Positions 14,614 through 46,980 of a DNA stretch of 53,467 nt are shown here, piece after piece. The notes under the pieces were generated by a model, which was not told the DNA's origin, ran no database searches, and worked only from the letters and a program-made list of their open reading frames with translations. The stretch lies in IMG/VR virus record IMGVR_UViG_3300035698_035346, positions 1-53,467 of that record. One strand, 5' to 3'. How positions within the stretch are numbered: the first letter of the stretch is position 1; each line of letters begins with the position of its first letter. The translations under genes were made by a program, and so were the position numbers. Origin of the DNA: a virus.

Positions 14614-14945
14614 ATTTTTTCTCCTATTATTATTTTATCTATTCCATATTGTTTCATGATTTTTTGGCAATTATCACAACAATAAGTATGTCCAATAAGA
14701 TATAAAGTACTCCCTTTAGCTTCTTTTTTTGCTATCTTACAAGCATCAATTTCTGCATGAGAATTTTGTTTACATATTTTTTTACATAATTCGTACCCTT
14801 CACCACTCTTATATTTTAAAATATCTCTAGGGCAAACTTTTTGCGGATTTTTACACCAATTACTTCCAATATAATGTTTACCGTTTTTATTTACAATAAT
14901 AGCTGTGACTTCTTGTTTTGCACATCTTCCCTTTTTAGTTAGCAT
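14610..14945 (-). CDS. dCMP/cytidine deaminase family protein
   Basis: The protein has NSHAEIDAC (H and catalytic E) and YCCDNCQ (C-x2-C), the zinc site of the deoxycytidylate deaminase family. dCMP deaminase makes dUMP for dTTP supply, which fits an AT-rich phage. The ATG at 14945 lies inside the end of the helicase gene and has only a weak SD; a longer frame to 15002 (130 residues) is possible. A base-modifying or sugar-pathway deaminase is less likely. Confidence 0.75.
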   Translation of the reverse strand: MLTKKGRCAKQEVTAIIVNKNGKHYIGSNWCKNPQKVCPRDILKYKSGEGYELCKKICKQNSHAEIDACKIAKKEAKGSTLYLIGHTYCCDNCQKIMKQYGIDKIIIGEKI

Positions 14946-17900
14946 TTTTTGTGTCTTTCTTTTTGAATTTCTTCTTTGTTTTAAACTTAAATAAAGGTAC
15001 ATCTGTCATCTTACCTTTTTCTGTAGTTACCATATCTTTAAAGCCATCAGCTTCTTTTTCTATTTTAATGGTTTCGATTCTACCCATCTTCTTAACGTTA
15101 TCAGTTATATCGAGTACATGACACAATTTATTTTCATCATCTGGGTCTATTCTTATACCTCTACCTATTTGCTGATAAAACAAAGCTAACGAAAGAGTTG
15201 GTCTGGCTAAAGTAATTCCATCTAAACTGGGGAAATCAAATCCGCAATTTCCCATAATTGTTATTGTACCTTTTTTTCTTGTAATAATGGTTCCCAAATC
15301 AGTAGATACGCACCATACTCTTTTATTTTGACTTTTATTTTTATATAATATTGGTAAATCTTTTGTTAACTGATGTTTTTGCTTGTCATATAACGATAGC
15401 CTATAAAGTTGTTTTTTATTATTGGGTCTCATTTTAACAGGTTTTATTGTTACTCTATATCCTCTACATACTCCTATTTTTTGTAACAATTCAAATAAAT
15501 CTATTAAACTTTTGGTAATAGCTCCACCCTTATAGGGCTTATTATTTCCATGCCAACCGTCTGCTTGCCAAAGACCCTCCATTAGAGAAAAATATTGCTT
15601 TCGATTTAACCCCCAAAACCATTTTGTTCCTTTCTTGTTTAAATAAGGTAATAATCTATATATTCCATTGACAGATTGAGTATGTCCTCCTGTACCTTTA
15701 GGTAATCTATATATTCGTTTTTCATTAGCCATTTTACATTTTCTACCCATTATTATACCTGTAGGCCAAGAATCTGAATAACTATAATCTACGTTACATG
15801 ATTTTAATATATTTTCAATCCATTGTAGCATTTTAGGATATCCCTTAGACTGAGCCAAACTATAAGTTTTTTCCGATTTACCTTTTGTTGAAACGCTTCC
15901 ATCTCCCAACCAAAATCCTATAAATCTACATTCATCTAAAGTAAGTTCTTTAGGATTTTTATATTTCAATTTACTTTTTTTCTCCCAAAAATTTAATGCC
16001 ATTTTTTTTGCTGTTTTTTTATCTATCCCTTTTTTTCTATAATTATAAGAATTAGATATTATAAATTTATTTTTATTTATTTTAAATATTTGTTCTTGTT
16101 CAACAAAAAGTTTTTGTGGTTTAGCAAATCCAGAAACTAAAATATTACATTTTTTATTAACTAATTCTTTAGCTTTTATTTTTCTAAAATTGTCATTATA
16201 ATATTCAGACGCTATAAAGTTATGATTAGCTGTTGTACTAATAGACACATATCTCCCATCCACTTTTACCATTTCTTCATCTAATTTTAAATCTTTTTTT
16301 ATTATTTTTTGAGGTATTTTAAAAATTATCTCTTTAGTATTAATATTATATTGAGCAATTTTTTTGCTATAATCTATAGTATTTATATTAACCCATCCTG
16401 TTTCAGATAATATTTCGGTATCCTCAGATAAACAATTTAAAATCCCCACATTCAATAAATGTTTTATTTTGCCTGACCTAAAATTAGCAATCAATACTTC
16501 TCTTTCTTTTTTATTGTGCTTACTAGTAACAACATCAGCACTCAAACCCATAGTTGTTAACATAGCTTTAGCTCTATCCGCTTGTCTTATTGAAGAACAA
16601 AAGATTAAATTGTGTTTTACTCTCTTATCAAAGTCCAAGATAATTTGAGATAGTTTTTTTAATCTACTATCAGACCAAAAAGCTTCTACCGCATCTTTAT
16701 CATAATCTGCTCCAGTACTGTTTATTTTTAAATGAGAAGTATCAAAATCATTAAATTTATAATACTTGATTGGACACAGATATTTCTTTTTTAATAGTTC
16801 TTCATTATCTACCTTATATATTATTTGTTTAAAGAAAAAAGGATAAATTCGATTTATCATCGAAAGTTTCGAAGTATAAAATAAATCCTTTCCCTCTTTA
16901 AAGTATTTTTGTGTTAACCTATAAGGTGAAGCTGTTAGACCACAAATAGCTTTAGGTTTTATTTCTTTAAAGAATTTATTATACATTCCTTTTATTTTCT
17001 TAGGGTCAAGACCATGACACTCATCCAATAAAACATATTTAAAATCTTTAAATAGTTCTGGCTTTCTAAATATACTGCCTATTGTAGCATAAGTATATTT
17101 ACCTATTTCTTTTTGTTTCAAAGAAGCCGAATATATACTAATATCCTTTATACCGTAAGAAACCAACTTACTGTAATTTTGTTCTAATATTTCTTTAGTG
17201 GGCTGTAGTATCAATATAGGCTCATTCAATTGATGGCATATTTCAGCTATAACTAAACTTTTACCACTATTATGATGAATCATGAAATCACCTGTCAAAT
17301 ACAAATTATCACCATCTAATTCAAATCCATAATAATTATCAATCTTAGTTTTTTCTATTTTCCATCCTGTTACTAACGGATTAACCTTACATTTTCTTTT
17401 ATTTAATACTTTTTTTCTTTGACATATGTTTGGAATTAAGTGTAAGTCTCCTGTTATATGTACTCCCCAATATACACCTTTTTTAATTGTTTGGCATGAT
17501 TTTATTTTTTTAGAAAAAATTGCTCTGAATCCTAAACTTTTGCAAATAAACTGTACGTCTTTAGCTAGTTGTTTAGATTTTGATACGTATGAAAATTCAT
17601 TTTTACACAAGTGACCTTCAGTATCTAAAATACCTGCTAATATTTTTAATCTAGTGTTTCTACTTCCTCTTTTATATATATTAGGAACAAATTTATCTCC
17701 TGATTTTTTACCATATAATCCTAATTGTTTTATAATTGAAGTTAATGGATTGGGAATAGACCTAGTTGCTTTAGGATAGAAATAATTAATATTTCTAGAT
17801 TTTTTTCTTTTTATTTTATATCTAATTGTTGGTTTTACTCCAAACTTTTTAACTTTTTTATTCATTAATTCAATAATATTATCATCACTGTTTGTAAAAG

Positions 17901-18423
17901 ACGTACCGTGTAATAAACAACCATCACCTATTAGTACTCCTAAAACCCAAGGGTCTAATATTATTTTTTTGTCTATAGATTTAAAATTAGCACTCGAATA
18001 TTGTAATTTTCTTAAATGTTTCCATGTTTTTGATTTATTTAAACAATTTTTTACTTTTACACAGTCAGTATATCTAGGTTTAACATAAAGTCCTGAAGTT
18101 TTGTCTGATTGTTTTTCAAAAGCTAAAATATGATTTTCATTGACCAGAAAAGAGTTTCCTTTATTTGGAGTAACTCTATATAGTAATTCTGTACCTTTAA
18201 TGGTTTGTAAAGCAATTCTTTTTTGGTTATTTATTCCCATAATCTCATCATTAACTTTAATATTTTCTACCTTTTTCAAAGAACCATCATACATTAATAT
18301 ATCTGTACCTTTGGCATGACAACCAGTAGGCAACACAAGTACAAACGGTCTTTCGCCTTCTTGCATATACAAAACAGCTTTATCACTAGCTTCTTGTTGA
18401 TACCTTCTTAAAGTATACTTCAT
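14935..18423 (-). CDS. SF2 DNA/RNA helicase containing two inteins
   Basis: The 1162-residue precursor holds an SF2 (DEAD/DEAH-like, UvsW/RadD-type) helicase of about 415 residues after removal of two inteins. Extein motifs: Q-like YQQEA, Walker A LPTG-SGKS (split by intein 1 after residue 34), DECH box (LLDECHG), motif III LTASPYR, NVGILN-CGFDFPSLD (motif V, split by intein 2) and QQIGRGIR (motif VI). It probably unwinds DNA in recombination or replication restart. Intein 1 is residues 35-385 and intein 2 residues 664-1059. The start overlaps a small cysteine-motif gene (ATGA). Without splicing, ATP binding would be lost. Confidence 0.93.
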   Translation of the reverse strand: MKYTLRRYQQEASDKAVLYMQEGERPFVLVLPTGCHAKGTDILMYDGSLKKVENIKVNDEIMGINNQKRIALQTIKGTELLYRVTPNKGNSFLVNENHILAFEKQSDKTSGLYVKPRYTDCVKVKNCLNKSKTWKHLRKLQYSSANFKSIDKKIILDPWVLGVLIGDGCLLHGTSFTNSDDNIIELMNKKVKKFGVKPTIRYKIKRKKSRNINYFYPKATRSIPNPLTSIIKQLGLYGKKSGDKFVPNIYKRGSRNTRLKILAGILDTEGHLCKNEFSYVSKSKQLAKDVQFICKSLGFRAIFSKKIKSCQTIKKGVYWGVHITGDLHLIPNICQRKKVLNKRKCKVNPLVTGWKIEKTKIDNYYGFELDGDNLYLTGDFMIHHNSGKSLVIAEICHQLNEPILILQPTKEILEQNYSKLVSYGIKDISIYSASLKQKEIGKYTYATIGSIFRKPELFKDFKYVLLDECHGLDPKKIKGMYNKFFKEIKPKAICGLTASPYRLTQKYFKEGKDLFYTSKLSMINRIYPFFFKQIIYKVDNEELLKKKYLCPIKYYKFNDFDTSHLKINSTGADYDKDAVEAFWSDSRLKKLSQIILDFDKRVKHNLIFCSSIRQADRAKAMLTTMGLSADVVTSKHNKKEREVLIANFRSGKIKHLLNVGILNCLSEDTEILSETGWVNINTIDYSKKIAQYNINTKEIIFKIPQKIIKKDLKLDEEMVKVDGRYVSISTTANHNFIASEYYNDNFRKIKAKELVNKKCNILVSGFAKPQKLFVEQEQIFKINKNKFIISNSYNYRKKGIDKKTAKKMALNFWEKKSKLKYKNPKELTLDECRFIGFWLGDGSVSTKGKSEKTYSLAQSKGYPKMLQWIENILKSCNVDYSYSDSWPTGIIMGRKCKMANEKRIYRLPKGTGGHTQSVNGIYRLLPYLNKKGTKWFWGLNRKQYFSLMEGLWQADGWHGNNKPYKGGAITKSLIDLFELLQKIGVCRGYRVTIKPVKMRPNNKKQLYRLSLYDKQKHQLTKDLPILYKNKSQNKRVWCVSTDLGTIITRKKGTITIMGNCGFDFPSLDGITLARPTLSLALFYQQIGRGIRIDPDDENKLCHVLDITDNVKKMGRIETIKIEKEADGFKDMVTTEKGKMTDVPLFKFKTKKKFKKKDTKNAN
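15247..16434 (-). mobile_element. Intein 2 of the SF2 helicase (396 aa)
   Basis: It starts with C in CLSEDTEILSETGW (block A) after NVGILN and ends TIMGN before the extein C of CGFDF. LAGLIDADG-like motifs FWLGDGS and LWQADGW suggest a homing endonuclease. The penultimate residue is G, not the usual H. Confidence 0.92.
17269..18321 (-). mobile_element. Intein 1 of the SF2 helicase (351 aa), in Walker A
   Basis: It starts CHAKGTDILMYDGS after LPTG and ends DFMIHHN before SGKS, with S as the +1 residue. LAGLIDADG motifs LGVLIGDGC and LAGILDTEGHL are present. It closely resembles the intein in the primase-helicase. Confidence 0.95.
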
Positions 18424-18782: not shown

Positions 18783-18794
18783 TATATATTCTCC

Positions 18795-19253
18795 TTAGTC
18801 CCAAGGATGAAATCTTCCCAATTGATGACCCATTTTATTTAAAGCTTTTTCTACGTCACAAACATAAAAAATTGTTTCTCCTGTTGCTTCGTCTAAAGTC
18901 ATTGTATTGTGACCAAAGACTCTATCAAACACTTCAGGGTTAATTTTTAAGTCTTTAAGAATTTCTTTTAATTGTGATTTAGGATAACCATATTTGTGCT
19001 TTGGCTTCGGTAATTTTTTCATTTTTTCCTCTTTCTTCTCTCCCCATTTATAAAATCCATAAATACTTGTTATTACTGCCGTACCTTCTATAAAGAAAAT
19101 AGAAGTTAATCCTACACTTAACCCTACCCAAATCCAACCTGTTGCTCCCACTATTCTAAACAACCAACCTGTTCGATGTTTTCTAGCTACACTTATATTA
19201 CCTACGGCATATATTGCACTAAAAACCCAACCAAAAATATCTAATGAACTCAA
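18795..19253 (-). CDS. Membrane protein with soluble C-terminal domain (152 aa)
   Basis: Residues 1-70 contain about three hydrophobic segments, including RTGWLFRIVGATGWIWVGL, resembling small PnuC-type or phage membrane proteins with a GW-R-G-W pattern. Residues 75-152 are hydrophilic and helical. It overlaps the end of the dehydratase C-terminal fragment by 4 bases. Function unknown. Confidence 0.55.
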   Translation of the reverse strand: MSSLDIFGWVFSAIYAVGNISVARKHRTGWLFRIVGATGWIWVGLSVGLTSIFFIEGTAVITSIYGFYKWGEKKEEKMKKLPKPKHKYGYPKSQLKEILKDLKINPEVFDRVFGHNTMTLDEATGETIFYVCDVEKALNKMGHQLGRFHPWD

Positions 19254-19552
19254 TTATTCTCCTTTTTCAATACTAATTCTTGATAAGCTTTTTCCATAGC
19301 ATTATCTAACATTTCTCCTACGAGGTCTTGAAAAGAACATTCTGGTTTCCAACCTAAAGTTGTTCTAATTTTAGAAGCATCGCCCAAAAGAGCTTTGACT
19401 TCATTCGGTCTTTCTAATCTCTTATCATACTCAACATAGGTATCAATATTTAAACCTACTTTTTTAAAAACTAATAGTAAAAATTCTTCTATAGAATAAT
19501 ATTCTTCAGTTGCTACAACAAAATCATCTGCTTTCTTGTGTTGCAATATCAT
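19250..19552 (-). CDS. gmd: GDP-mannose 4,6-dehydratase, C-terminal fragment
   Basis: This 100-residue frame continues the dehydratase after an in-frame TAG. It holds the substrate-binding region: KADDFVVATEEYYSIEEF and RLERPNEVKALLGDASKI, then TLGWKPE, as in the C-terminal third of Gmd. Its ATG immediately follows the stop (TAGATG), so reinitiation is possible but no separate SD is seen. The lost codon is where Gmd has Trp, so TGG to TAG is the simplest explanation. Confidence 0.85.
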   Translation of the reverse strand: MILQHKKADDFVVATEEYYSIEEFLLLVFKKVGLNIDTYVEYDKRLERPNEVKALLGDASKIRTTLGWKPECSFQDLVGEMLDNAMEKAYQELVLKKENN

Positions 19553-20257
19553 CTACATAGCTCTAACATAATCTGTTGAATTACCCCAATCACGTTTAGC
19601 ATTTAAATTACCTAAGTAAAGTTTCTTTTGTAAACCGAATTTTATTCTTGCTGCAGCCATAACTATTTTCTGTGTTACAAACCTTTCCCCTCTGTACTTA
19701 CCTTCATGATTGAAACAAATAGTATTACTAGCAAACATATTAAACCCTGTTCTATAGGCTTTTACTGCGTAGTATGCTGCCTGTTTTGCTATACCATAAG
19801 GACTTATTGGATGCATTTGTGTAGTCTCGTTTTGAGGTGGAGGTGTTGCCCCAAATTGTTCACTAGAACTGCACTGAAGAAATTTTGTCTTAGGAGATAA
19901 TATTTTGTTTTCTATACCTCTTCTAATACCTTCTAACAACCTCAGTACTCCTGTAGCATTTATATCGAAAGTGTATACTGGGATATCAAAAGAAATTCTT
20001 ACTTGACTCATAGCAGCAGTATTATAAATTTCATCAGGTTTTATTTTATAAATTAAATCTATAACACTATTATCTGCTAAATCTGCATAGTGTATTTTTG
20101 AAGCATCATGTGGACTAAACACATCATCTATTCTTTTTGTTGTTAAAGTACTAGACCTTCGTATTGTACCGTGAACTTCATAACCTTTAGATAATAATAG
20201 TCTAGATAAATTAGAACCATCCATACCATTTATGCCTATAATAAATGCTATTTTCAT
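19553..20257 (-). CDS. gmd: GDP-mannose 4,6-dehydratase, N-terminal fragment
   Basis: This 234-residue frame is the NAD(P)-binding and catalytic part of Gmd: GINGMDGSNL (the GxxGxxG nucleotide loop), LQCSSSEQFG, SPYGIAKQAAYY (catalytic Y and K) and NHEGKYRGERFVTQKI. Gmd converts GDP-mannose to GDP-4-keto-6-deoxymannose, the precursor of GDP-fucose, perosamine and rhamnose. It ends DYVRAM-TAG, where an intact enzyme continues. With the fragment downstream the length (335) fits a normal Gmd. The gene may be dead, read through, or expressed as two pieces. Confidence 0.9.
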   Translation of the reverse strand: MKIAFIIGINGMDGSNLSRLLLSKGYEVHGTIRRSSTLTTKRIDDVFSPHDASKIHYADLADNSVIDLIYKIKPDEIYNTAAMSQVRISFDIPVYTFDINATGVLRLLEGIRRGIENKILSPKTKFLQCSSSEQFGATPPPQNETTQMHPISPYGIAKQAAYYAVKAYRTGFNMFASNTICFNHEGKYRGERFVTQKIVMAAARIKFGLQKKLYLGNLNAKRDWGNSTDYVRAM

Positions 20258-21057: not shown

Positions 21058-22845
21058 TTAATTCTCCAATTTGCTAAAAAATTCTTCCCAAGTTATCTTA
21101 TCAAAATAAGGTATATTAGATGGTAAACTAACATTCCAAATTTTTGAATTATGTTTTTCTAAATATACTTCAAAATCCTTTAAATCCTGTTTAATTGAAT
21201 CTCTATGTTTTATTCTATATACTAGAGGATTCCCTACACCAGAAGATACTATTGTTGGCTTGGTTTTATCTTTTTTAGGTTCAGCACTTTTTAAGTTTAC
21301 TTCATCTTGATACCAATGTGTTTTTTTTGTATTACAAGAAGGTGAACCAAAATCGTAACCACAATTACCCGACCAACAACACATATCATTTCTTTTTACA
21401 AAAATAATATGATTTTTTACATTGACATCATAAACATAATCATCATATTGTATTTTTTTTATTTGTTGGTTTTTTTTTAATGTTAATAAGTTTACAATGT
21501 TTCGACTACCACTTTTTTTACTATTGTTAGCATATATTGTATAACAGTCTTTGAAGCCTCGTTTTGGTATTTTCTTTATAAATTTATTTTTTTGATTTTT
21601 AAAAGCTTCATCTGAAGTTCTTGTATAAATATTACAGTAATATCCTAGTTTATAAAAAATTTCTTGAACATCTTCTTTTAACTGTTTAGATACTGTCCAA
21701 TAAGTATAACCAGTATTGTCTATTCTACCATCGCCAAATATTAAAGCATCTAATAAAATTTTTAATTGTCTTTTAGATAAATTCATTAATTCTCTAGGTA
21801 TATATTTTTCATGAGATAGACCAAATTGTTTTAAATATAATACTAATTGTTTACTATAAAACACCCAACCTCTTTTATGCCTATGATATTTATATGGTAG
21901 ATTGTTTAATATCTCTTGTATATAATCATCTTGTTCTCTAGTATGATTCTGATAAATAGTTACTTTATAATTTCCTCCATTAATACTTGAACATCCTTCA
22001 GATAAATACAATCCCAAAAAAGCTAACCAATAATCCATTTTGATTTTTTTTATCATAATTTGCTTAAACTGATTAGGATTTTGAGGCAGATAAAACCACT
22101 CTTGTTCTTTCCCCACATTAAAATCAAAAGTAATAGGTATTTTTATATTTTTTTTAATATGAAAAGATTCTTCAGCTGTTACCCATTGAAATTTATCCGA
22201 CTTTGTTAGATATCCAAATTTATGTTTAGGAGTGACCAATAAGTCCATACAGGGACTATTAAACTTATACATGTCGCCTTTGTATTTCATTTTAATTTTA
22301 TAATTTATATTGCTCCATTCAGTTTTGCCGTTTCTTTTTCTAGTCAATATCAAATCAAATTCTGTCAAATCTTCAAAATATTTCCATCCCTTAAAAGTAA
22401 GAACTTGAGTTTCTTTATCAAAACATAAATATATCTCTTCTCTCTTTTCTGCTATAGCTAAAGACAAAGCAAAATTACCACATAACCCCATACCACCATA
22501 AAAAAGTTCCTGTTTCTCACTTTCGAAAACTTTGTCTCCTAAGAAAGCTCCTCTATCTTTAGTTATTTTATATTGATGTACCCAATCTCCTAAAGTTACA
22601 CCAAAGGTTTTATTATATCTACAATGTACTTCAACCCCTTTATTATGCAAATCTATTATATCTGCTGTATTGTTTTTAAAGAACGAATTATCAACGAAGA
22701 TTTCCCTTTTTGGAAGAAAAGGCATCCATAAATGACTGTAATTTAATGACCAACATTCCTCCCCTTTTATTTTATCCCATGCACCTTTTGTTATACCTTC
22801 TTCGAAAGATACTCCTCCACCTATTATTATAACTCTTTTATTCAT
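21058..22845 (-). CDS. MptE/DUF115-like protein containing an intein
   Basis: The 595-residue precursor has an extein of 241 residues split after residue 140 (EEIYL) and resuming CGYDFGSP at 495. The start VIIIGGGVSFEEGI, the segment GGMGLCGNFALSLAIAEK and IYL-CGYDFG resemble the 6-hydroxymethylpterin pyrophosphokinase MptE-like (DUF115) fold, also seen in phage and sugar-related proteins. It may bind a nucleotide or nucleotide-sugar. The intein is residues 141-494. Family assignment of the extein is moderate; the intein is clear. Confidence 0.78.
   Translation of the reverse strand: MNKRVIIIGGGVSFEEGITKGAWDKIKGEECWSLNYSHLWMPFLPKREIFVDNSFFKNNTADIIDLHNKGVEVHCRYNKTFGVTLGDWVHQYKITKDRGAFLGDKVFESEKQELFYGGMGLCGNFALSLAIAEKREEIYLCFDKETQVLTFKGWKYFEDLTEFDLILTRKRNGKTEWSNINYKIKMKYKGDMYKFNSPCMDLLVTPKHKFGYLTKSDKFQWVTAEESFHIKKNIKIPITFDFNVGKEQEWFYLPQNPNQFKQIMIKKIKMDYWLAFLGLYLSEGCSSINGGNYKVTIYQNHTREQDDYIQEILNNLPYKYHRHKRGWVFYSKQLVLYLKQFGLSHEKYIPRELMNLSKRQLKILLDALIFGDGRIDNTGYTYWTVSKQLKEDVQEIFYKLGYYCNIYTRTSDEAFKNQKNKFIKKIPKRGFKDCYTIYANNSKKSGSRNIVNLLTLKKNQQIKKIQYDDYVYDVNVKNHIIFVKRNDMCCWSGNCGYDFGSPSCNTKKTHWYQDEVNLKSAEPKKDKTKPTIVSSGVGNPLVYRIKHRDSIKQDLKDFEVYLEKHNSKIWNVSLPSNIPYFDKITWEEFFSKLEN
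21364..22425 (-). mobile_element. Intein in the MptE-like protein (354 aa)
   Basis: It starts CFDKETQVLTFKGWKYFEDL, a textbook block A, and ends CCWSGN before extein C. LAGLIDADG-like motifs LGLYLSEGC and LIFGDGRI are present. The penultimate residue is G. Confidence 0.95.
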
Positions 22846-26346: not shown

Positions 26347-26937
26347 CTAAAACTCCTTAACATAAATTAATTTTGGTTTACCTGTTTTTACTTCTGCTTC
26401 TCCAGTTTTAATTGCTTCTCTCAATCTATAACTATAAGGTCTATCTATAGTTAAACTTCGCATATGGTATCTTTTATCTCCCCACATTACATACTTTGAC
26501 TTACCTGTCTCACCTAACAAAGTAAATCCTGTAGCCTTATATATCGTTCCTACATGTCCTACTGTTTTGTCAGCAAAGGTTAATATCCCTTTTACTTCTT
26601 TATAATTTTTCTTTAGCCACCACATACACTTAGCTAAAAAATAACTCTCTGTGTTCTTAGGGGCTTTATCTACACAACAAAATCTTCTTAAATCAAGTAA
26701 TCCTTCATGTTTCTTTTGATGTCTAGGAGGACCAAATGTTGCAGCCCCTATTAGTGTATCTTTCCAGTATAAACCAAGATTAAATTTTATGTCGCCACCT
26801 ATATGGTCTGTTTTATAATGAAACAATTTATATATTTGAACCGCATCAGACCACTTGCATTCTTTAACTTTGAACTGGAGCGGAGAGGTCGGAATTGAAC
26901 CGCCATCATATGTCTGGAAGGACATGCGTTCTGCCAT
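26347..26937 (-). CDS. Mom-like (GNAT-fold) DNA modification protein 1
   Basis: The core resembles phage Mu Mom-type proteins: NLGLYWKDTLIGAATFGPP, LLDLRRFCC, ESYFLAKCMWWLKKNYKEVK, ILTFADKTVGHVGTIYKATGF and a last YVMWGDKRYHMRS. Mom modifies adenine in DNA using acetyl-CoA and protects from restriction. Only the starts at the far N-terminus (26937, or ATG at 26925) are available, and these codons (MAERMSFQTYDGG...) are encoded by the tRNA-Gly-like sequence; the family-like region begins about residue 22. The SD GGAG also lies within the tRNA-like acceptor. A second paralogue is at 39796-40446. Confidence 0.75.
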   Translation of the reverse strand: MAERMSFQTYDGGSIPTSPLQFKVKECKWSDAVQIYKLFHYKTDHIGGDIKFNLGLYWKDTLIGAATFGPPRHQKKHEGLLDLRRFCCVDKAPKNTESYFLAKCMWWLKKNYKEVKGILTFADKTVGHVGTIYKATGFTLLGETGKSKYVMWGDKRYHMRSLTIDRPYSYRLREAIKTGEAEVKTGKPKLIYVKEF

Positions 26938-26951
26938 TAAACTATCTCCGC
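26876..26951 (-). tRNA. tRNA-Gly-like sequence (anticodon TCC), possibly degenerate
   Basis: Acceptor GCGGAGA/TCTCCGC, D-arm GTTT-AATGGCA-GAAC, discriminator T and encoded CCA fit tRNA-Gly(TCC). The anticodon stem ATGTC/GACAT leaves only a 6-base loop (CTTCCA), and the T-arm has a mismatch and an extra base before the acceptor. It overlaps the end of one CDS and the start of the next, with TAATG lying in the D-arm. It may be decaying or have a second role. Confidence 0.65.
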
Positions 26952-32062: not shown

Positions 32063-32273
32063 TTTTTCCTCCAATTTCTAAACCTTTAACTACTTTATAA
32101 AAATCTTTTGATTCTGAAATAAACAGACCTTCTCTTATTTCGATATTTTGTATTGCCCACAAATCTTTATCATACGCTTTCAAAAAAGTTTCTAATCCTT
32201 TTTCATCCTGAACGATAGTTGTGTCTAACATTCCGTCACCTAAATCTACCAGTGTCACTATTATCATTTTCAT
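32052..32273 (-). CDS. Hypothetical protein (71-73 aa)
   Basis: It starts with an ATGA overlap at the polymerase stop (ATG 32273, or 32267 with better spacing from AGGAGG). The N-terminus MIIVTLVDLGDG is a beta strand. No family recognised. Confidence 0.5.
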   Translation of the reverse strand: MKMIIVTLVDLGDGMLDTTIVQDEKGLETFLKAYDKDLWAIQNIEIREGLFISESKDFYKVVKGLEIGGKNVS

Positions 32274-35200
32274 TCTCCCTCCTGTTTCAATTTTTCATTC
32301 CAACCCATAACATCATAAATTTTCTCTGTTTTATTATTAATGCTTCTACTTATAACTTCTTTCCAATCAACATTATCTTTATCAAATTCTGTAATATTAT
32401 CATCATTAAAAGCCAGAACATTTTTTACTTTACTTTTAATCGTCTTAGTTTCATGTGTTATATCTAGTCTGTCTACACTAACTAAATACTTTTTATATTT
32501 GTTCAACCATTGTTCTTTAGGAATGTTGTCAGTTAAAACTCTTAGTCTATCTTTTGATTTTTTTAAGTCTTCTGTCAAAACTTTTTCTAGTCTGACTTCT
32601 GATATTCTTTTTCCATCTAGTTTTCTGTAAGTCTTTTCTACGTCTTTCATTTCCCAACCAAAAGGTTTTACATAAGTATAATAATAAAGTTCACCTTTAG
32701 GGACAAAGAAGGTAGGGTCAATGTCTTTAGTATACCTATAAGCTCTCATAAAGATAGGTTCATTTATATAGTTTCTAGTTCCTACTTTACAAGGAAAACC
32801 TACTTCTTCTAAAGTTTTTGTTTTTATTTCTTCTTTCTGATTATCAACCCAAGTTTTTATTGATGCTTCAGGAACTTCTTCCATTATTTTTTCAAATAAT
32901 ATTCTTTGAAAACTTGCTTCAAATTGACTGGATGAACTACGTTTCATCTGTAAACCTTTAATTTCTGTCTCTAAACCTTTAGGTGTTTCTAGATAGCCAT
33001 AATAATGACAACGACCAATTAATAAGATTTTTTTAAACACGCCTTCTAATGCAAATTTAATAGTAACAGATTCTTTACCAAATTTTTCTTTACACCACTG
33101 TTGTACCAAATTATTAAAAAATTTTGTTATGTTTTCATTAGGTTTATCTAATTTACAAAAAATAGAATCTGTATCATAATAAATAACTTCGCCTTTTTCT
33201 TCCTCTATTTTATCAATAACATAATGTAATAAATCTCTGACTATATAAGTAATAGATGAAGTCAGTCTATTATCAAATAATCTAAAATAAGGATTGCCTG
33301 CTACACCAAAAACCGAATTGATTAAACCTTTTCCTCCATCATATTGACTTTTAATTATTTTATATTCTGGAGAATTTAAAGAGGTATTTTTTAATTTGTC
33401 ACCTAAATCTTTTTTAAAATCTAATAATTTCTCAACTACTACAGGAAATAGTGCATCTGGATTTTGTTTAAAATGTATTCCATTTACAGTAACTGTTTCT
33501 ATAGTAGGATATTCTTCTATATTTTGTGTATCTAAACAAAAATTTCTTATGGCTTCTGGATATGCTGCAGCTATATCCACTTTAAAAACATTTTTAAATA
33601 ATCCCACTTCTGAATCTCTAGTTGCTCCTTTAAACCCTTCGTTTTCGTTATCTGCTTTCTTATTAGGCAAAACTATTCTTTTTATTTTTGCTTCTTGTAA
33701 AATCATTGATTCTATCAAACGAGAATTACCACTTAACATAACTTTATCATTTCTTCTTATAAAGAAATTATGGTATTTATTTTCTATACACCACACTTTA
33801 CCTTTATAATGCTGTTCTTTAACCCATTTTTTATGAAAACATCTGGTCCAGTTTTCTTGCATTTGAATATAAACACTATATACTCTTTTCATAGATGACA
33901 ATTTTTTACCCATACAAACATCTTTATCAGTGTGACCTATGTAAGCATTATAGCCTGCTAAAATAGCTAAAATTTGATATTGCTCTGCTAAATCTCTATC
34001 AGCTGTAGCAATATAAACATTTCTGGGTTTTCTTTTTGATCTATGACCATCCCCCTCTACACAAGTATTTAAAAAAATTCTCATTTGTCTCAAAGGTAGT
34101 TCAAATAAATCTTTAGGAATTTGTTTTTTTTCATTTAATAAAACTCTGTATTTTGTTGCAAAAGCACTTGGTATAATCAATCCTTCTTTTCGTTCTCTAC
34201 CTGTTTTAATACCCAACCTTTTTAATAAATTTTTAATTTTATAATAAGTAGGTGTTCCTTTTTTTTGGGAAATAACTATACAACTTGCGAAATTTCTGCT
34301 TTGTCTTTTTTCAAACCCACCTTCAGTAATAATCCAAGCCAATAGCATTACTTCATCATCTGACAAATAATTATTTTTTCCATTATAATATCCTTTACCG
34401 CTCATAATAAAGGCTCTTTTTCCGTCAGCAATATTCTGAGCTTCTTCAAAACAATAAGTATCTTGTTTTGCCCACAACCCTTCGTATCTTTTATACTTCA
34501 TTAAAAAATTATGATTAGGTGTCACATTATAATTTATTCGTCCCTTTTCATAATTTAATAATATACCATCATAATCATAATTAAATATATTATCAATATT
34601 AATATATTCATATTTATCATTAAACAAATTTAAACTTAATACTGTTTGTTCTTTAGAAATAGTATCAATATTTTTCCATCCATCATTTGTTAATATTTCC
34701 GTTTTATCGTCTAAACAGTTATAAGGTAAATCTTCCCATTCACATTTAGTCAATCTTCTAATGTTATCGAAGTACGGAAAGATATTAAACATTTTTTCTA
34801 GTTTAATCATTCTCTCTACATCGTGAATATTTTTAGCTTTAACAACACCATCATCTAAATTATTGAAATCTGTTTTTTGCCACTTCTCTTCTTTCAAATA
34901 CTTTTGTGCAACTCTATCTAGTGCGTAACTCTGTTCTCTCATTTTTATTTTCTTAAAGAGTTCTATGTAATCTATTACACTTGTACCTGCTGGCATGTCC
35001 AAATAAAGTTTATCCTGCCCTATTAAGAAGGTAGATAATGAAGCCCATCTTTTTTTACCTATTGGACTTATTCTTGTAGCAAAGTCTGGTATTCTTTTAC
35101 TTAGATATTGGTAATCAAATTGTGTATTCCACATAGACATAACATCAAATTGTTCTTTTTTTAAATACCTAACAAAATCATCTAACAAAAATTCTTCTAA

Positions 35201-35638
35201 GTCCGCATAGTCAGGTAAGTAAAAGGTGTCTATTTTTTCTGTAGCTGAATTATAAATACTAATACAACTAACAGGCCATTCAGCTTTTGTTGGGTCAGGA
35301 AAACCTTCAGCTTTAACTTCAATATCAATAAAGCAATACTTGATTTTAGTTTCTTCTATTTCTTTAACTTTATCTATTAAATATTTACGACAAAAAGGAA
35401 TATCTGATTCAAAGTCATTTTTTCTGTCGGCATAAGTATAAAGGTCTTTTGGTATCTTACAAGGAATTTTTTCTAATCTAGTTCCATCGTAACCTTTATA
35501 TTTACCAGCTTTACTTGGTTTGTAGAAATAAGGTAAGTATCCATTTTCTTCTCTGATTTCTAGCTTACCTTCGGCATCACGAAGAAATAGATATAGTTTT
35601 TTATTGTTTTTGTTATTGTAAAGATTAACTAATTTCAA
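32270..35638 (-). CDS. Family B DNA polymerase containing an intein
   Basis: The 1122-residue precursor gives a 791-residue polymerase after splicing. Exonuclease motifs are YCFIDIEVK (about 101-109), MWNTQFDYQYL (169-179) and NIHDVERMI; polymerase motif A is FKVDIAAAYPEAI (about 685-697), motif B the K...YDGGKGLINSVFG region, and motif C IYYDTDSIF. All catalytic acids are present, so it should be an active replicative polymerase with proofreading. The intein (residues 308-638) lies at LPYN/SRLIE between exonuclease and palm. It heads a run of replication genes and is preceded by two small membrane proteins. Confidence 0.96.
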   Translation of the reverse strand: MKLVNLYNNKNNKKLYLFLRDAEGKLEIREENGYLPYFYKPSKAGKYKGYDGTRLEKIPCKIPKDLYTYADRKNDFESDIPFCRKYLIDKVKEIEETKIKYCFIDIEVKAEGFPDPTKAEWPVSCISIYNSATEKIDTFYLPDYADLEEFLLDDFVRYLKKEQFDVMSMWNTQFDYQYLSKRIPDFATRISPIGKKRWASLSTFLIGQDKLYLDMPAGTSVIDYIELFKKIKMREQSYALDRVAQKYLKEEKWQKTDFNNLDDGVVKAKNIHDVERMIKLEKMFNIFPYFDNIRRLTKCEWEDLPYNCLDDKTEILTNDGWKNIDTISKEQTVLSLNLFNDKYEYINIDNIFNYDYDGILLNYEKGRINYNVTPNHNFLMKYKRYEGLWAKQDTYCFEEAQNIADGKRAFIMSGKGYYNGKNNYLSDDEVMLLAWIITEGGFEKRQSRNFASCIVISQKKGTPTYYKIKNLLKRLGIKTGRERKEGLIIPSAFATKYRVLLNEKKQIPKDLFELPLRQMRIFLNTCVEGDGHRSKRKPRNVYIATADRDLAEQYQILAILAGYNAYIGHTDKDVCMGKKLSSMKRVYSVYIQMQENWTRCFHKKWVKEQHYKGKVWCIENKYHNFFIRRNDKVMLSGNSRLIESMILQEAKIKRIVLPNKKADNENEGFKGATRDSEVGLFKNVFKVDIAAAYPEAIRNFCLDTQNIEEYPTIETVTVNGIHFKQNPDALFPVVVEKLLDFKKDLGDKLKNTSLNSPEYKIIKSQYDGGKGLINSVFGVAGNPYFRLFDNRLTSSITYIVRDLLHYVIDKIEEEKGEVIYYDTDSIFCKLDKPNENITKFFNNLVQQWCKEKFGKESVTIKFALEGVFKKILLIGRCHYYGYLETPKGLETEIKGLQMKRSSSSQFEASFQRILFEKIMEEVPEASIKTWVDNQKEEIKTKTLEEVGFPCKVGTRNYINEPIFMRAYRYTKDIDPTFFVPKGELYYYTYVKPFGWEMKDVEKTYRKLDGKRISEVRLEKVLTEDLKKSKDRLRVLTDNIPKEQWLNKYKKYLVSVDRLDITHETKTIKSKVKNVLAFNDDNITEFDKDNVDWKEVISRSINNKTEKIYDVMGWNEKLKQEGE
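33725..34717 (-). mobile_element. Intein in DNA polymerase B (331 aa)
   Basis: It starts CLDDKTEILTNDGWKNI and ends VMLSGN before the extein S of SRLIE. LAGLIDADG-like motifs LLAWIITEGGF and VEGDGHR are present. The C-terminal block VWCIENKYHNFFIRR resembles that of the metallophosphoesterase intein. Penultimate residue is G. Confidence 0.95.
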
Positions 35639-38103: not shown

Positions 38104-38111
38104 TTATTGAT

Positions 38112-40446: not shown

Positions 40447-42045
40447 TTATTTTTTTCTTTCAAGTCTTTCAAGTTTTTTCTTTTGCTTAATCTTTTTTTT
40501 AAACTTTTCAGCATATTCACATTTTTCTCCATTTTTTATCCATTTAGCTATATTGCTAATTATTTCTTGAAAATTAACTGGTCTAAAATCATTAACATCT
40601 ACTCCCACATTATACATTATAGATTTGTCACTTAATCTTTTTATTTTCCAAGCATCATGTATATGGCCAACTAGATTTATTTCATAAAATTCATTTGCAT
40701 GGGAAGGACTATGAACAACGTAATATCTTTTTCCACTGTATCGTACAACAAGATTTTGTATCTTTGTTTTCATTCCGTTTCTTGAATTACCTGTTAATAA
40801 AGTTTGTCCGTTTCTTTCCATAAAAAAATTTTCATTTTCTATTTCAATACACCACATTTTTTCTGCTTTAACTTCTATTGTTCTATTGTCATTGGCAAAT
40901 TGTTTATATTGTAAAAAATCTTCTTTAGACTGTTTTCTTTTACATATAGTTAAATGGTTATCCCCTCTACAATCAGTTATTAAATTAGATTTAATATTAT
41001 GTGTAATATTTAGAGCTAAAAATTGTTCTAAAACTTTACTTTTACCCCATAAAGATATAGTATTAGAACTACCTTTTCCACCATTTGCTTTACATGCTTC
41101 TTGAATAAAAATATTATATTGTCTATCTGATAAAAAATACAACCATTCTGGAAATTTTTCTTTGTCTTCTAACTGTAATTTTTTTAAAATTATTTTACTG
41201 TTTTCACTACGAAAGTGAAATCCTACAGCAGGCAAAGAGTCTTTTTTTAATTTTTTGCCACATATATGAGTAATATTTCTTTGTCTTTTATAAAATCTAT
41301 AATCAAATTTTAATTTTTTTAATAAATCTTGAATTTCTTTAATATATTTGGGTTTAGATTGGTATAAACTTACATGTTTATATTTTTTATGTATACCACC
41401 ATCTGTTAAAATCCAAGCTAATAATTTTATCCATTCATCAGAAATATTATATTCTTTATTTCCACTTTGAAAGGCTCCTATAAGTTTAACAGGTGAATCA
41501 TATTCAAAAAGTTCTTTAGAAGTTTTAATTCTAATCGAATTACAATTATTAGTACCAAAACTAAATATGTGCCGATGATTTTCACTAAATTTAAATATAG
41601 CATTTCTATGTTTAAATTTATATACTTTATCAACATTGGTGATTATTATTTTTTTTATTGGTTTAAATTCTAATTTCTTGCTTTTTAAATTTATATTTGG
41701 TATTAAATCTCCGTCTTCAATTTCATTATAAAATTTCCATCCGTCTTTTGTTAGTATTCTTGTATCCATTGATACGCAGCAATGGTTGCCACTTACAAAA
41801 GTTTTTATCCCATTTAATTTTTTAATATAATCATAAGATTTTTTTGGAGTTCCTTGTTTACCACCTTTACTATTCCTAAAATTAAAATCTCCAACATTTA
41901 TAACAAAATCATCTTTCTTTACTCTTTCGTTCCAATTTTTTATTAAAGTGTCATCCATTTCTTTAACTGATTTAAAGGGTCTATTACAGTATTTTATTAT
42001 TTGAAAATGGCCAAAATGATCATCTGCCGAAAAATATGTATCCAT
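40447..42045 (-). CDS. Calcineurin-like phosphoesterase containing an intein
   Basis: The 532-residue precursor gives a 201-residue phage metallophosphoesterase. Motifs: FSADDHFGH (DxH), INVGDFNF (GD), FVSGNHC (GNH, normally GNHD) and NLVGHIHDAW (GHxH). The intein starts right after the GNH motif, either at Cys89 or Cys90; Cys90 leaves GNHC-SRNG with normal spacing. Likely a phosphodiesterase on nucleic acid or nucleotides. Splicing is needed to bring the metal ligands together. Confidence 0.92.
   Translation of the reverse strand: MDTYFSADDHFGHFQIIKYCNRPFKSVKEMDDTLIKNWNERVKKDDFVINVGDFNFRNSKGGKQGTPKKSYDYIKKLNGIKTFVSGNHCCVSMDTRILTKDGWKFYNEIEDGDLIPNINLKSKKLEFKPIKKIIITNVDKVYKFKHRNAIFKFSENHRHIFSFGTNNCNSIRIKTSKELFEYDSPVKLIGAFQSGNKEYNISDEWIKLLAWILTDGGIHKKYKHVSLYQSKPKYIKEIQDLLKKLKFDYRFYKRQRNITHICGKKLKKDSLPAVGFHFRSENSKIILKKLQLEDKEKFPEWLYFLSDRQYNIFIQEACKANGGKGSSNTISLWGKSKVLEQFLALNITHNIKSNLITDCRGDNHLTICKRKQSKEDFLQYKQFANDNRTIEVKAEKMWCIEIENENFFMERNGQTLLTGNSRNGMKTKIQNLVVRYSGKRYYVVHSPSHANEFYEINLVGHIHDAWKIKRLSDKSIMYNVGVDVNDFRPVNFQEIISNIAKWIKNGEKCEYAEKFKKKIKQKKKLERLERKK
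40786..41778 (-). mobile_element. Intein in the metallophosphoesterase (331 aa)
   Basis: It starts CVSMDTRILTKDGW and ends TLLTGN before extein S. LLAWILTDGG is a LAGLIDADG-like motif; the second (EACKANGGKG) looks degenerate, so the endonuclease may be inactive. C-terminal MWCIEIENENFFMER resembles the polymerase intein. Confidence 0.93.
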
Positions 42046-42651: not shown

Positions 42652-42680
42652 TTTTTAAACATCAACCCACATTTTCCAAT

Positions 42681-43256: not shown

Positions 43257-43257
43257 C

Positions 43258-43767
43258 TTAATCATTCTCCTTTAAAGCTTTAAACAACTCTTTTTCTGTG
43301 TATTGGGCATCTGCTGATCCTTTATAAAAATAATCTATACATTTTTTATCCAATAATTCGTCAACATCTTTAACAAACCAAGAAGTAAAATATTTCAAAA
43401 AAGGATGCTCTTTATAATTATTATCTTCGGTTATAATAATAATTGGTTTTTGGTGTTCCCAAGCCCAAGCAAGTTCACAAGTAGTACCTGTTGAAGGTCT
43501 GGAGCACCCAAAAGTATTCATATTAGCTACTATCAAATCCGAATTAATTACACACTGATAATCTCTGTGTACTAAAGCTTGTGGAGGAACATCTGACTTC
43601 AATCCATCACCACTTATCTCAGCAAACTTTTTACCATTATAGGGGTCTAAGAATTTAACATCTTCCCAAGATTTCATCCTGTAATGATTTCTTACTTTCA
43701 GTCTCCACTCAACAGTTTCTTTTAGTTTGTCTTTAGACATATACCCTGCTAAATAAATCTTAAACAT
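43258..43767 (-). CDS. Nucleoside 2-deoxyribosyltransferase-like protein
   Basis: FKIYLAGYMSKDKL at the start, CVINSDLIVANMNTFGCSRP, STGTTCELAWAWEHQKPIII match the deoxyribosyltransferase/SLOG group (active-site E in TCELAWA). It may move bases between deoxyribonucleosides or hydrolyse nucleotides, aiding salvage or base modification. An NAD-derived substrate is possible in related groups. Confidence 0.78.
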   Translation of the reverse strand: MFKIYLAGYMSKDKLKETVEWRLKVRNHYRMKSWEDVKFLDPYNGKKFAEISGDGLKSDVPPQALVHRDYQCVINSDLIVANMNTFGCSRPSTGTTCELAWAWEHQKPIIIITEDNNYKEHPFLKYFTSWFVKDVDELLDKKCIDYFYKGSADAQYTEKELFKALKEND

Positions 43768-43774
43768 TATCTAC

Positions 43775-43820
43775 TCCTTGTCTATTTCTTTTTGTATTCC
43801 TTGTCTATTTCTTTTTGTAT
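43775..43820 (-). repeat. Perfect 23-bp tandem repeat
   Basis: Two identical copies of a 23-base unit, 43775-43797 and 43798-43820, span the C-terminus and stop codon of the upstream ORF. The second copy (in transcription order) is read in a different frame, gives the TAG stop and supplies AAGGA for the deoxyribosyltransferase-like gene. Confidence 0.9.
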
Positions 43821-44066
43821 CCTGTTTTTAATTTTGACTACTTTTTTCTCAACGTCATTATAAAAAATAACATTTTCTTTTTTATGCCATCTATATTTTA
43901 TTTTAATACCGTCTCCGTATCTATCATCAACATCTGCTTGTGTAAAGTTATCACAGGTTACACATTTTTCACCTGTGTCCCAAGCTATATTTATTAAATA
44001 AACTATACCTATTATCGGATTTTCTAGTTTTTTTATTCTTGCTTCAAGTATTGTATTCCAAAACAT
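43782..44066 (-). CDS. Hypothetical protein (94 aa)
   Basis: Helical protein with CVTCDNF near residue 37 and a basic end formed partly by the tandem repeat. No family recognised. It lies just downstream of the primase-helicase gene. Confidence 0.55.
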   Translation of the reverse strand: MFWNTILEARIKKLENPIIGIVYLINIAWDTGEKCVTCDNFTQADVDDRYGDGIKIKYRWHKKENVIFYNDVEKKVVKIKNRIQKEIDKEYKKK

Positions 44067-44076
44067 TGCTCACTCC

Positions 44077-46980
44077 TTATTGTTCCTGAATCCTTTTTAA
44101 TTCTTTAGAATTCAATTCGTCTTTTCTGTGTAAAATTTTAGTGTCTACATCATAAATACATTTGATTTCTGTATTTTTTCTCATTCCTATTGGCTCTCTC
44201 ATCTTAGTTACTTCAAACCTACTATTTTTTCCTTCTCCTTCTTTCTCGTAAAGAAACTTACAAACAAACGAAGGGAACAAAGGAAGCAAGTTATCAGCAA
44301 AAAAGGTTTCATCGTACTTCAACTGAGTAAAAACTATTAGTAACCCACCTTTAAGTTGTAACTGTTCGGTAAAGTGTTGAAATATTTTATCAGTTTCTGC
44401 ATAATTTTGAGGTAACAACCAATCTATAATAGTAACTGCATCTTTTTCTAACTCGATAGTTTCTGGTTTAGCATGTTGGCAGAAATAAAACTGACCTTCT
44501 GTTATTTGCAAATCTTCAGCTATAAGACCAAATCTTGAACCAGCCTCTAACGATATATAATATGGTTTTATGTGTTGGTCTATAAACTGTTTTATAAACC
44601 CCATTGCCATATGTGTATTATGATTAACAATAAAATTATCTAACATGTACAATGAATCTTTATTCAATTCAAAACCATAATATTTTTCTTTTTTGTTTAA
44701 TGGAGTAATTTTTATTCTACAAGTATTTGCCGATAATCTATTAGCTTTTGATTTTCTTGCTTTTTTTCTTTTCCTTTTGACAGGAATTGTTTCACAATCA
44801 CCCATAATTGAAATTTTATAAACTGTATAAGGTTTTTTATTGTGTGTTATATATTTTTTTTTATCATTAACAACAAATCCTAAACTTCTTGCTAAAAAAA
44901 CAATATCTTTAGCTAACTGTTCATTTGCAATATCTACAGCATAACATGTTTTACTTTTCGGTAAATATCCCTCTGTATCTATAAGACCTGCTAAAAGTTT
45001 CAATCTATTCTCTTTTGAATTTATTAAATATTTTCTAGGAATATGTTTATATTTAACAAGTTTTAATCCTATACTACTAGAATAATTTTCTAATTGTTTT
45101 ACTTCTTTATCTGGAGTAGTTATATTGGGTGTTGCACTGTCTCCAGCTCCTAACCAAACTCCCAATATATAAGGATCAATATCTAAACTTTGTTTTTTAA
45201 AATCAACGGGGACTCTATAAGCCAAATATGTTTTTTGTTTCTTTTTACTCCAACTTAAAAACGTTCTTACACTAATATTTAGCTTTTCTTTTGTTTTATA
45301 ATGTTGTAAAGACATAATATGTTCTCTATTAACTACAAAACCAGGTCCCCTTGTAGGTTTAACCTCAAACATTTCTCCAAAACCTGTACCTGTTTTTAAA
45401 ACTGTACGAGGAGTACTATCTATTCCCATTACTTTATTATTCACTGTAATATCTTCTACTTTTTTAAAAGAACCATCATACATTAAAACTTTTGTTCCTT
45501 TTCTGTGACATTTCCCGGTTCCTGTACTTCCCGCAATAACAACTATATCACCGTGTCTAAAAATTGCTTTGTCGTGGAAGTAAGGTACTTTAAAATCTAA
45601 AGCTCTACATGTACCTGAAAAAGTATCTTTCCATAATACTTTATTTAAGTGCTGATAATTCTTACCTGTTTTTCTTAAAAAATTCTTCTCAACAAGTTCA
45701 CTTAATATTTGTACAACTTTATTTTGTTTGTGTCCTGTTCCTCTTACTACTTCTAAAATGTTAGCTTCTTTAGCATGTTTTATATAGGTAAGTATATCAT
45801 CTGCTGCATCAGCTACTTCGTCACTAACATATTTATTAATGCTATTTAAAATATTTTTTAGTTCTGGTTTTGATAGTGGGTTTGGTATTCTATTATTTAA
45901 TACATCTAAAGAATAACAAACTTGCTCAAAACTCATTTTCTTAACCAGCGCCCCTGCTATACTCATAAAGGAAGTAGTTCTTGTACCTTCGGGAACAATA
46001 TCTTTAGTGCTTATAGTATTTTCTATAGTGTCTTCATTTTTGTCATCGTCTACAAACTCTTGTTGGAATTTTAAAAACTCATCATTAAAATTCTTTTTAT
46101 TATCGTTAATAGCACCTAAGACATCTACTTTTAAAATTGCTGGCATTCCACTCAAAGTATTAGTGTGGAAAGTTCTTTGATGGTTGTTTATGACGGAAGG
46201 CTCTACCATAATAAGCCCCCCGTCATTTTCAATGTCTATTTTTACCCTATCTAGTTCTATAGCTGATTTTCTAATAGTGTCATCATACTTATAGAATAAA
46301 TGTAACCCACCCAATGTTTCTTGATGCACAGTCTTATCAAGTTCTAAGAAATATTTACCCAAGAATTTCTTAATACTAGCATCTCTTATTTCTATTGCTT
46401 TTTTCTTTTCTTCTTCTGTAAGAGCTGGACCTTTTTCACCGTACCATCTCTTCTTTAAATCAGTAGGCATAGCATCAATATCTACTACGGTTATCCCACT
46501 CTTTGCACCTGTTTTCACAGCAATGTTTTTCTTTTCTTCTATCCAGATTTTCCATTGCTTCTTCTCTTTAGTTGTTTTCTTTTGCCATAACTTTTGTATG
46601 CAGGCTTTTCCGTTCTTTACTACTGGAGCTAGGTCAAAATTAAATGATTCATAAATACTTAAAACATCATCTATTATTTTCGGGGTTAACACTTGCATAT
46701 CGTATTTCTTAGCCAAATAATCTAATATTTCTTCTCTGGTATCTTTACTTCTTTCTGGCTCTAAAACTCTAACAAAGTCGACTAAATCTCCTTTTTTCTT
46801 ACAAACAAAACAATCAAATTTATAAGCTTTGTTTCCTTCTTCTAAAATAGGTCTCGCCGAAGGCATAACACTCTTACAAAAAGGGCAGTTTATCATTATT
46901 GATTTTTTCCATTTTTTTGTTTTGTACCCTTTAAAATTTTCACGAAGATATTCATCGACTTTTGTTAAAACTTTATACAT
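44077..46980 (-). CDS. Primase-helicase (zinc finger, AEP-like, PriCT, RecA-like helicase) with intein
   Basis: The 967-residue precursor becomes 669 residues after splicing. Domains in order: zinc finger CPFC...CFVC (about 32-60); archaeo-eukaryotic primase/polymerase core with GITVVDIDAM, GGLHLFYKY and KIDIENDGG (about 120-290); PriCT-like helical region EGTRTTSFMSIAG (about 331-385); RecA-like helicase starting IVVIAGSTGTGK (479-490) and continuing THMAMGFIKQF, WLLPQ, GGLLIVFTQLK. It should prime and unwind at the replication fork. The intein (491-788) sits between GK and T of Walker A. Followed by genes for an OB-like protein upstream in transcription. Confidence 0.93.
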   Translation of the reverse strand: MYKVLTKVDEYLRENFKGYKTKKWKKSIMINCPFCKSVMPSARPILEEGNKAYKFDCFVCKKKGDLVDFVRVLEPERSKDTREEILDYLAKKYDMQVLTPKIIDDVLSIYESFNFDLAPVVKNGKACIQKLWQKKTTKEKKQWKIWIEEKKNIAVKTGAKSGITVVDIDAMPTDLKKRWYGEKGPALTEEEKKKAIEIRDASIKKFLGKYFLELDKTVHQETLGGLHLFYKYDDTIRKSAIELDRVKIDIENDGGLIMVEPSVINNHQRTFHTNTLSGMPAILKVDVLGAINDNKKNFNDEFLKFQQEFVDDDKNEDTIENTISTKDIVPEGTRTTSFMSIAGALVKKMSFEQVCYSLDVLNNRIPNPLSKPELKNILNSINKYVSDEVADAADDILTYIKHAKEANILEVVRGTGHKQNKVVQILSELVEKNFLRKTGKNYQHLNKVLWKDTFSGTCRALDFKVPYFHDKAIFRHGDIVVIAGSTGTGKCHRKGTKVLMYDGSFKKVEDITVNNKVMGIDSTPRTVLKTGTGFGEMFEVKPTRGPGFVVNREHIMSLQHYKTKEKLNISVRTFLSWSKKKQKTYLAYRVPVDFKKQSLDIDPYILGVWLGAGDSATPNITTPDKEVKQLENYSSSIGLKLVKYKHIPRKYLINSKENRLKLLAGLIDTEGYLPKSKTCYAVDIANEQLAKDIVFLARSLGFVVNDKKKYITHNKKPYTVYKISIMGDCETIPVKRKRKKARKSKANRLSANTCRIKITPLNKKEKYYGFELNKDSLYMLDNFIVNHNTHMAMGFIKQFIDQHIKPYYISLEAGSRFGLIAEDLQITEGQFYFCQHAKPETIELEKDAVTIIDWLLPQNYAETDKIFQHFTEQLQLKGGLLIVFTQLKYDETFFADNLLPLFPSFVCKFLYEKEGEGKNSRFEVTKMREPIGMRKNTEIKCIYDVDTKILHRKDELNSKELKRIQEQ
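44617..45510 (-). mobile_element. Intein in primase-helicase Walker A (298 aa)
   Basis: It starts CHRKGTKVLMYDGSFKKVED after GTGK and ends NFIVNHN before T (+1). LAGLIDADG motifs LGVWLGAGDS and LLAGLIDTEGYL are present. Very similar in block A and C-terminus to helicase intein 1. Confidence 0.95.

Follow-up and report, generated by a model that had tools for sequence, protein, structure and literature searches.

Six inteins in one uncultured phage contig

The linear virus record IMGVR_UViG_3300035698_035346 of IMG/VR comes from an uncultured phage and covers part of its genome. The window analysed here is its whole length of 53,467 bases, and it carries six in-frame inteins within five open reading frames (ORFs) of the minus strand: two (SF2a and SF2b) in an SF2 helicase, and one each in an MptE-like protein, a family B DNA polymerase (PolB), a metallophosphoesterase (MPE) and a primase-helicase (PH) (Table 1). 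The elements are ordinary class-1 LAGLIDADG inteins and the unusual thing about them is their density. Very probably they came in mostly through separate acquisitions and gathered at conserved sites, mainly in proteins of replication and DNA metabolism. An earlier note, written from the letters of the window, had proposed six inteins in five proteins; all of them were present and in frame, and their summed length of 2061 codons agreed with its figure of about 2060.

Table 1. Intein-bearing ORFs of the window and their inteins (slashes mark intein borders; cut-offs are those of the family models)
Feature	Position	Strand	Length (aa)	Length without inteins (aa)	Site and borders	LAGLIDADG acids	Model scores
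SF2 helicase ORF (RadD/ResIII-like)	14935..18423	-	1162	415
Intein SF2b	15247..16434	-	396		Motif V: NVGILN/C...MGN/CGFDFP	D + D	weak matches
Intein SF2a	17269..18321	-	351		Walker A: VLVLPTG/C...HHN/SGKS	D + E	Hom_end_hint 1e-13; LAGLIDADG_3 8.8e-14
MptE-like protein ORF	21058..22845	-	595	241
MptE intein	21364..22425	-	354		EEIYL/C...SGN/CGYDFG	E + D	LAGLIDADG_3 2.4e-6; Intein_splicing 3.7e-6 (below cut-off)
PolB ORF (DNA polymerase family B)	32270..35638	-	1122	791			DNA_pol_B 1.7e-24
PolB intein	33725..34717	-	331		WEDLPYN/C...SGN/SRLIES	E + D	LAGLIDADG_3 4.1e-8; Intein_splicing 5.9e-7 (below cut-off)
MPE ORF (metallophosphoesterase)	40447..42045	-	532	201
MPE intein	40786..41778	-	331		SGNHC/C...TGN/SRNG	second motif degenerate	LAGLIDADG_3 1.3e-6; intein_Nterm 0.008 (below cut-off)
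PH ORF (CHC2-type Zn ribbon, Prim-Pol, PriCT_1, P-loop helicase part)	44077..46980	-	967	669
PH intein	44617..45510	-	298		Walker A: GSTGTGK/C...NHN/THMA	first motif degenerate	Hom_end_hint 2.3e-16; Hom_end 8.6e-9

Splicing residues, domains and borders

Cys1 and the terminal Asn were kept in all six inteins; with Cys1 present throughout, a class-3 assignment (WCT triplet, Cys1 absent, splicing started by a block-F Cys) was ruled out. The +1 residue is Ser in SF2a, PolB and MPE, Cys in SF2b and MptE, and Thr in PH. The block-B His, which is the invariant H64 column of the intein alignment (where MAFFT shifts MPE by two columns), was found by eye in every intein, within the motifs NENH, TANH, TPKH, TPNH, SENH and NREH, and the Thr of this block is replaced by Asn or Ser in three of the six. 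The penultimate residue is His in SF2a and PH and Gly in the other four. From these residues we infer that the inteins are probably competent for splicing.

The Hint and LAGLIDADG domains that the earlier note expected were found. SF2a and PH exceeded the cut-off of Pfam Hom_end_hint, all inteins other than SF2b exceeded that of LAGLIDADG_3, and Intein_splicing or intein_Nterm matched the MptE, PolB and MPE inteins below the cut-off. The intein is also the only part of the MptE-like protein matched by Pfam or NCBIfam models, and the name of this protein comes from the first reading of the sequence. By family models SF2b is the weakest of the six; here the evidence comes from a homologue in a Salinibacter phage, described below, and from a predicted structure. 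Its AlphaFold model, of modest quality (pLDDT 58, best near both ends), gave PI-SceI (4e-7) and I-DmoI (5e-5) among the best Foldseek matches in the PDB, together with other inteins including mini-inteins. The Pfam models and, for SF2b, this prediction thus indicate the Hint fold. A second AlphaFold model, for which just PH and SF2a were aligned, was uninformative (pLDDT 41.6).

When five of the inteins were compared with phage records by tblastn, the best matches ran from residue 1 or 2 to the last residue, and for SF2b the alignment covered residues 1-378 by tblastn and 1-396 by blastp. The borders therefore do not come from motif reading alone, because alignments with inteins of unrelated phages begin and end at them. 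At the MPE site, GNHCC, a start at the first Cys was ruled out by the block-A spacing and by the allele GNHD/C...TGN/S of mycobacteriophage Switzer, so the intein starts at the second Cys.

Judged by eye, both LAGLIDADG acids are kept in SF2a, SF2b, MptE and PolB, and one is gone in PH and in MPE. The first motif of PH reads GVWLGAGDS, without the expected acid and in a shortened domain, whereas the related intein of contig G033 (see below) keeps GLWLGDG; in the second motif of MPE, FIQEACKANGG, the expected catalytic acid is likewise gone. Two of the six homing endonucleases thus look degenerate.

A seventh intein was not found in the window with family models and custom profile hidden Markov models (HMMs), although for the methylase cut off by the left edge no judgement is possible, and no group I or group II intron was found in the window by Rfam.

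The joined exteins match intein-free homologues

Close relatives of the window phage were not found in IMG/VR by scans with single proteins, and a scan with T4-like relatives of PolB returned just distant polymerases (23-28% identity). An alignment-based scan with the PH and SF2a inteins led to the 21-kb contig G033, which has several neighbouring genes in common with the window, and alignments of the exteins with those of G033 led to about 20 further contigs. These were fetched and compared, and all are called kin contigs here. The PolB tree places the window with G033, G052, G053, G049 and G059 (support 93/94).

After removal of the inteins, the exteins of all five genes aligned continuously with intein-free homologues, as the earlier note had predicted. 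The parts of the SF2 extein match the models ResIII, DEAD, Helicase_C and heli_RadD_YejH, and the joined extein was uninterrupted at both sites in comparison with all 80 of the 80 best IMG/VR loci (38-62% identity), which belong to other phages, without a PolB of the window type. For the other four genes the homologues come from the kin contigs. The joined PolB extein shares 44% identity with that of G033 (WEDLPYN/SRLIES in the window, WEDLYFN/SRIVEM in G033), the MPE extein 50-53% with those of G033, G052 and G053, and the PH extein 42% with the joined extein of G033; for the uninterrupted MptE homologues the identity is 25-42%.

The claim that removal of the inteins restores the motifs exactly held for length and register; at three sites the residues beside the junction differ. 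The MptE junction reads IYL/CGYDFG in the window and IYL/LGYDFG in the kin, where Leu stands in place of the +1 Cys. At the MPE junction, GNHC/SRNG in the window corresponds to GNHD/RNNS in the closest kin, and after GNHD the kin sequences mostly continue with R, K, N or G. The SF2b junction, NVGILN/CGFDFP, corresponds to NVGVLT/TGFDYP in its relatives. These substitutions would fit an arrival of the +1 nucleophile, and perhaps of a few neighbouring codons, together with the intein.

Empty and filled sites in the kin phages

No kin contig compared, on either side of the PolB tree, had an intein at the PolB, MPE or MptE site: the PolB site was empty in 19 of the 19 kin contigs listed, the MptE site in all 10 homologues from kin contigs, and the MPE site in each contig that carries the gene. 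At the PH site the picture is different: an intein occupies it in G033, whereas 17 other listed kin contigs have it empty. The G033 intein lies at the same GTGK/T position, is 41% identical to the PH intein and is its sister in the tree (90/95). The SF2 helicase gene was absent from all fetched kin contigs, and it may therefore be a newcomer in the window phage.

The kin phages carry inteins at other places. These include PolB at DTD/S and at DLG/SAYP, a clamp loader at DE/C, a ribonucleotide reductase, methyltransferases, a RecA-like protein and a tyrosine recombinase-like protein, all of which were named from their sequences. The PolB of G033 has its intein at YWDTD/S, corresponding to the DTD/S (pol-c) site of archaeal PolB inteins, unlike the window PolB intein, which lies at YN/SR, outside the catalytic motifs of the polymerase.

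Several further observations concern the kin contigs. On the minus strand of G059, at about 51000-57700, a 1377-aa methyltransferase-like frame contains three inteins, one of them HNH-like by eye, and a clamp-loader-like frame of the same 63-kb contig has a fourth at DE/C. A ribonucleotide reductase-like gene at position 41300 of G052 has an intein that, by eye, apparently carries a nuclease of the HNH type, not LAGLIDADG. In G033, two small ORFs beside the MPE and PolB genes (13746-14171 and 16238-16759) look by eye like free-standing NUMOD-type homing endonucleases.

Could the inteins be ancestral, inherited vertically in the window phage and lost in its kin? The PH site offers the best case, since the site is common to the window and G033, the two belong to one PolB clade, and intein and extein have diverged to about the same degree. 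Either common descent or two invasions may account for this site, the identities of 41% and 42% being alike. As an account of all six inteins we consider vertical inheritance improbable, though it fares better than the other rivals: it would take many precise losses to leave the PolB, MPE and MptE sites vacant in all kin compared, which fall on both sides of the PolB tree, and none of the fetched kin has the SF2 gene.

Nearest relatives of the window inteins

The best match of each window intein lies in another genome and is never another window intein. For four of the six we found allelic or nearly allelic counterparts, and the trees agree: in Escherichia phage PJ16 for SF2a, in mycobacteriophage Switzer for MPE, in a Salinibacter phage for SF2b (one codon off), and in G033 for PH, as described above.

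PJ16 has a full-length homologue of SF2a at the identical site, PTG/SGKT, and SF2a falls within a clade of inteins at (P/A)TG/SGK(T/S) sites that includes PJ16 (97/95). Inteins of this family also sit in the Walker A motif of helicases of Klebsiella phage JD001 and of Salmonella phages, where the protein is annotated as 'intein containing helicase precursor'; the JD001 intein differs from SF2a in lying at another site, GK/T, and the identities are just 34-39%. As a separate observation, the 55-kb contig G042, which does not belong to the kin, has, at the locus 7686-8702, a 1474-aa SF2 helicase frame with two inteins, at GK/T and before QMIGRGLR, the second of which ends in Gln in place of Asn.

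SF2b aligns over nearly its full length, at 28-30% identity, with its sister in the tree (100/99), the intein that Salinibacter phage M8CC-19 has in its SF2 helicase. Both are in motif V, but the Salinibacter intein is inserted one codon earlier (VL/TEGY compared with LN/CGF).

The MPE intein is the sister of the intein in the Switzer gp53 phosphoesterase (91/84). The two align over their full length at 25% identity and have in common the GNHx/S site and the penultimate Gly. They differ in the -1 residue, Cys in the window and Asp in Switzer, and in the second LAGLIDADG motif, which is degenerate in the window; the host phages are unrelated. Judging by the shared RDF annotation, the Switzer gp53 intein is probably the same as that of Bethlehem gp51, which is discussed below.

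The MptE intein clustered with kin-phage inteins at different sites (95/81), and this group has therefore also moved to new sites.

Separate and mostly site-specific invasions fit these data better than copying within the genome, because each window intein has its nearest match outside the window and four have counterparts in other phages. If one or two inteins had entered and then been copied to new sites, the six would be paralogues; the 37% identity of SF2a and PH, both in Walker A motifs, could be taken in that sense, and the several unrelated sites occupied by the MptE-intein group in the kin show that ectopic movement occurs in the wider phage family. Every window intein is nonetheless closer to an intein of another genome than to any in the window, SF2a and PH lie in separate branches beside same-site inteins of other phages, SF2b groups with the Salinibacter intein, and for the most part the trees already separate the six with strong support, so that proliferation within the genome seems unlikely, slightly more so than vertical inheritance.

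Intein density

The window has 11.2 inteins per 100 kb, and the highest values among the kin contigs are 9.5 and 6.4 per 100 kb. In 1.10 Mb of kin contigs there are at least 19 inteins, 0 to 4 per contig or about one per 58 kb; these counts are lower bounds, as the custom HMMs missed several inteins later found by intein_Nterm. At the kin rate 0.92 inteins would be expected where six were found (Poisson, P = 4e-4), a comparison made post hoc on the assumption of even rates and to be taken just as a guide.

Mycobacteriophage ET08 was reported to carry at least five inteins, a maximum for mycobacteriophages at the time (PMC3029335), and the zeta crAss-like phages have up to 3 inteins and 14 introns in genomes of 145-192 kb (PMC7886860). 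The ET08-related phages among our tblastn matches are about 155 kb long. The window resembles these phages in having several inteins in several proteins, and differs from them in that its six lie within 53.5 kb and that Rfam found no introns. Its density is unusually high, above that of any kin contig and above the published counts that we found in open-licence papers, although we do not claim a record. That such density is rare, as the earlier note put it, is therefore fair for the window contig and less so for its family, given the kin rate and the one 63-kb contig with four inteins.

Origin of the inteins

The sequence of events that we favour starts from what can be read directly in the window: each insert keeps the frame and carries the residues for self-splicing. 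In splicing, Cys1 would undergo the N-S shift, the +1 Cys, Ser or Thr would take over the N-extein, the terminal Asn would cyclise and the exteins would be joined, giving proteins of normal length. The endonuclease would then cut the empty allele of a co-infecting phage, and repair would copy the intein with flanking codons. Homing of this kind would explain why sites are common to far-related phages, why kin sites are empty and why the +1 Cys or Ser is mostly missing at intein-free MptE and MPE alleles. After fixation the endonucleases would decay, and to judge from the motifs PH and MPE may have begun to do so, each having already lost one catalytic acid. The mixture of intact and degenerate endonucleases fits such a cycle of gain, fixation and decay, which is what would be expected, without being proof of present homing.

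Several points weigh against this reading. In four of the inteins the terminal Asn is preceded by Gly in place of His, and in two of these, SF2b and MPE, the block-F His is not obvious either. The first of these objections is softened, because the RDF intein of mycobacteriophage Bethlehem gp51, with a penultimate Gly, splices completely and is slowed by a change to His (PMC5050341). Allelic counterparts were not found for the PolB and MptE inteins. The two SF2 inteins may have arrived together with the SF2 gene. Finally, we found no relative close at the DNA level that would show a recent homing event, and for this reason an old acquisition followed by loss in the kin may apply, above all at the PH site.

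The earlier note had taken the density as a sign of active spread of homing inteins. Spread is borne out in that related phages differ strongly in which sites are filled, as expected of mobile inteins, and in that most endonucleases look intact, but it is not spread by copying within the genome. The word 'active' went further than the evidence, with no DNA-close relative at hand and two of the six endonucleases lacking an expected acid.

The inserts might instead be inactive, the genes being broken or the precursors left unspliced. The four Gly endings, where the penultimate His is missing, and the two degenerate endonucleases speak for this, whereas the frames are open through about 300-400 intein codons, the nucleophiles and terminal Asn are all kept, the polymerase, helicase and primase domains of the exteins are recognisable, and the Bethlehem intein shows that a penultimate Gly is compatible with splicing in a phage; we regard inactivity as very unlikely. 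An assembly chimera or mis-assembly is hardly credible: the contig comes from a collection of uncultured viruses, but the frame is kept, the borders are correct at both ends, GC is alike in inteins (0.24-0.27) and host ORFs (0.25-0.30), and neighbouring genes are common to the window and G033.

Other features of the window

On the minus strand at 10415-10768 there is a full-length match to tmRNA (RF00023, 120.5 bits, E 1e-46) that was not reported by ARAGORN, perhaps an unusual phage-carried tmRNA. A GDP-mannose dehydratase-like gene at 19250-20257 (minus strand) is broken by one in-frame TAG at 19553-19555, and an uninterrupted homologue is present in G052 (64411-65376). A weak tRNA-like element (26876-26951, minus strand), for which an anticodon of two bases was called, overlaps the start of the ORF at 26347-26937.

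Implications

For annotation, it matters that five genes of the window would pass for oversized ORFs if the inteins went unnoticed. It is conceivable, though highly speculative and in our view very improbable, that protein splicing gates phage replication, with splicing rates, some of them tuned by the penultimate Gly, timing the joint activation of several enzymes of DNA metabolism, given inteins in the polymerase, the P-loop of the primase-helicase, the SF2 helicase (two) and the phosphoesterase.

The window and its kin form a phage group in which gain and loss of inteins can be read site by site, with the kin sites empty or others filled. A mycobacteriophage has the MPE site filled and a Salinibacter phage an adjacent SF2 site, and this speaks for a preference for the same sites across very distant phages. 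The absence of the +1 Cys or Ser from intein-free MptE alleles and from most MPE kin is a useful indicator of what moves along with an intein.

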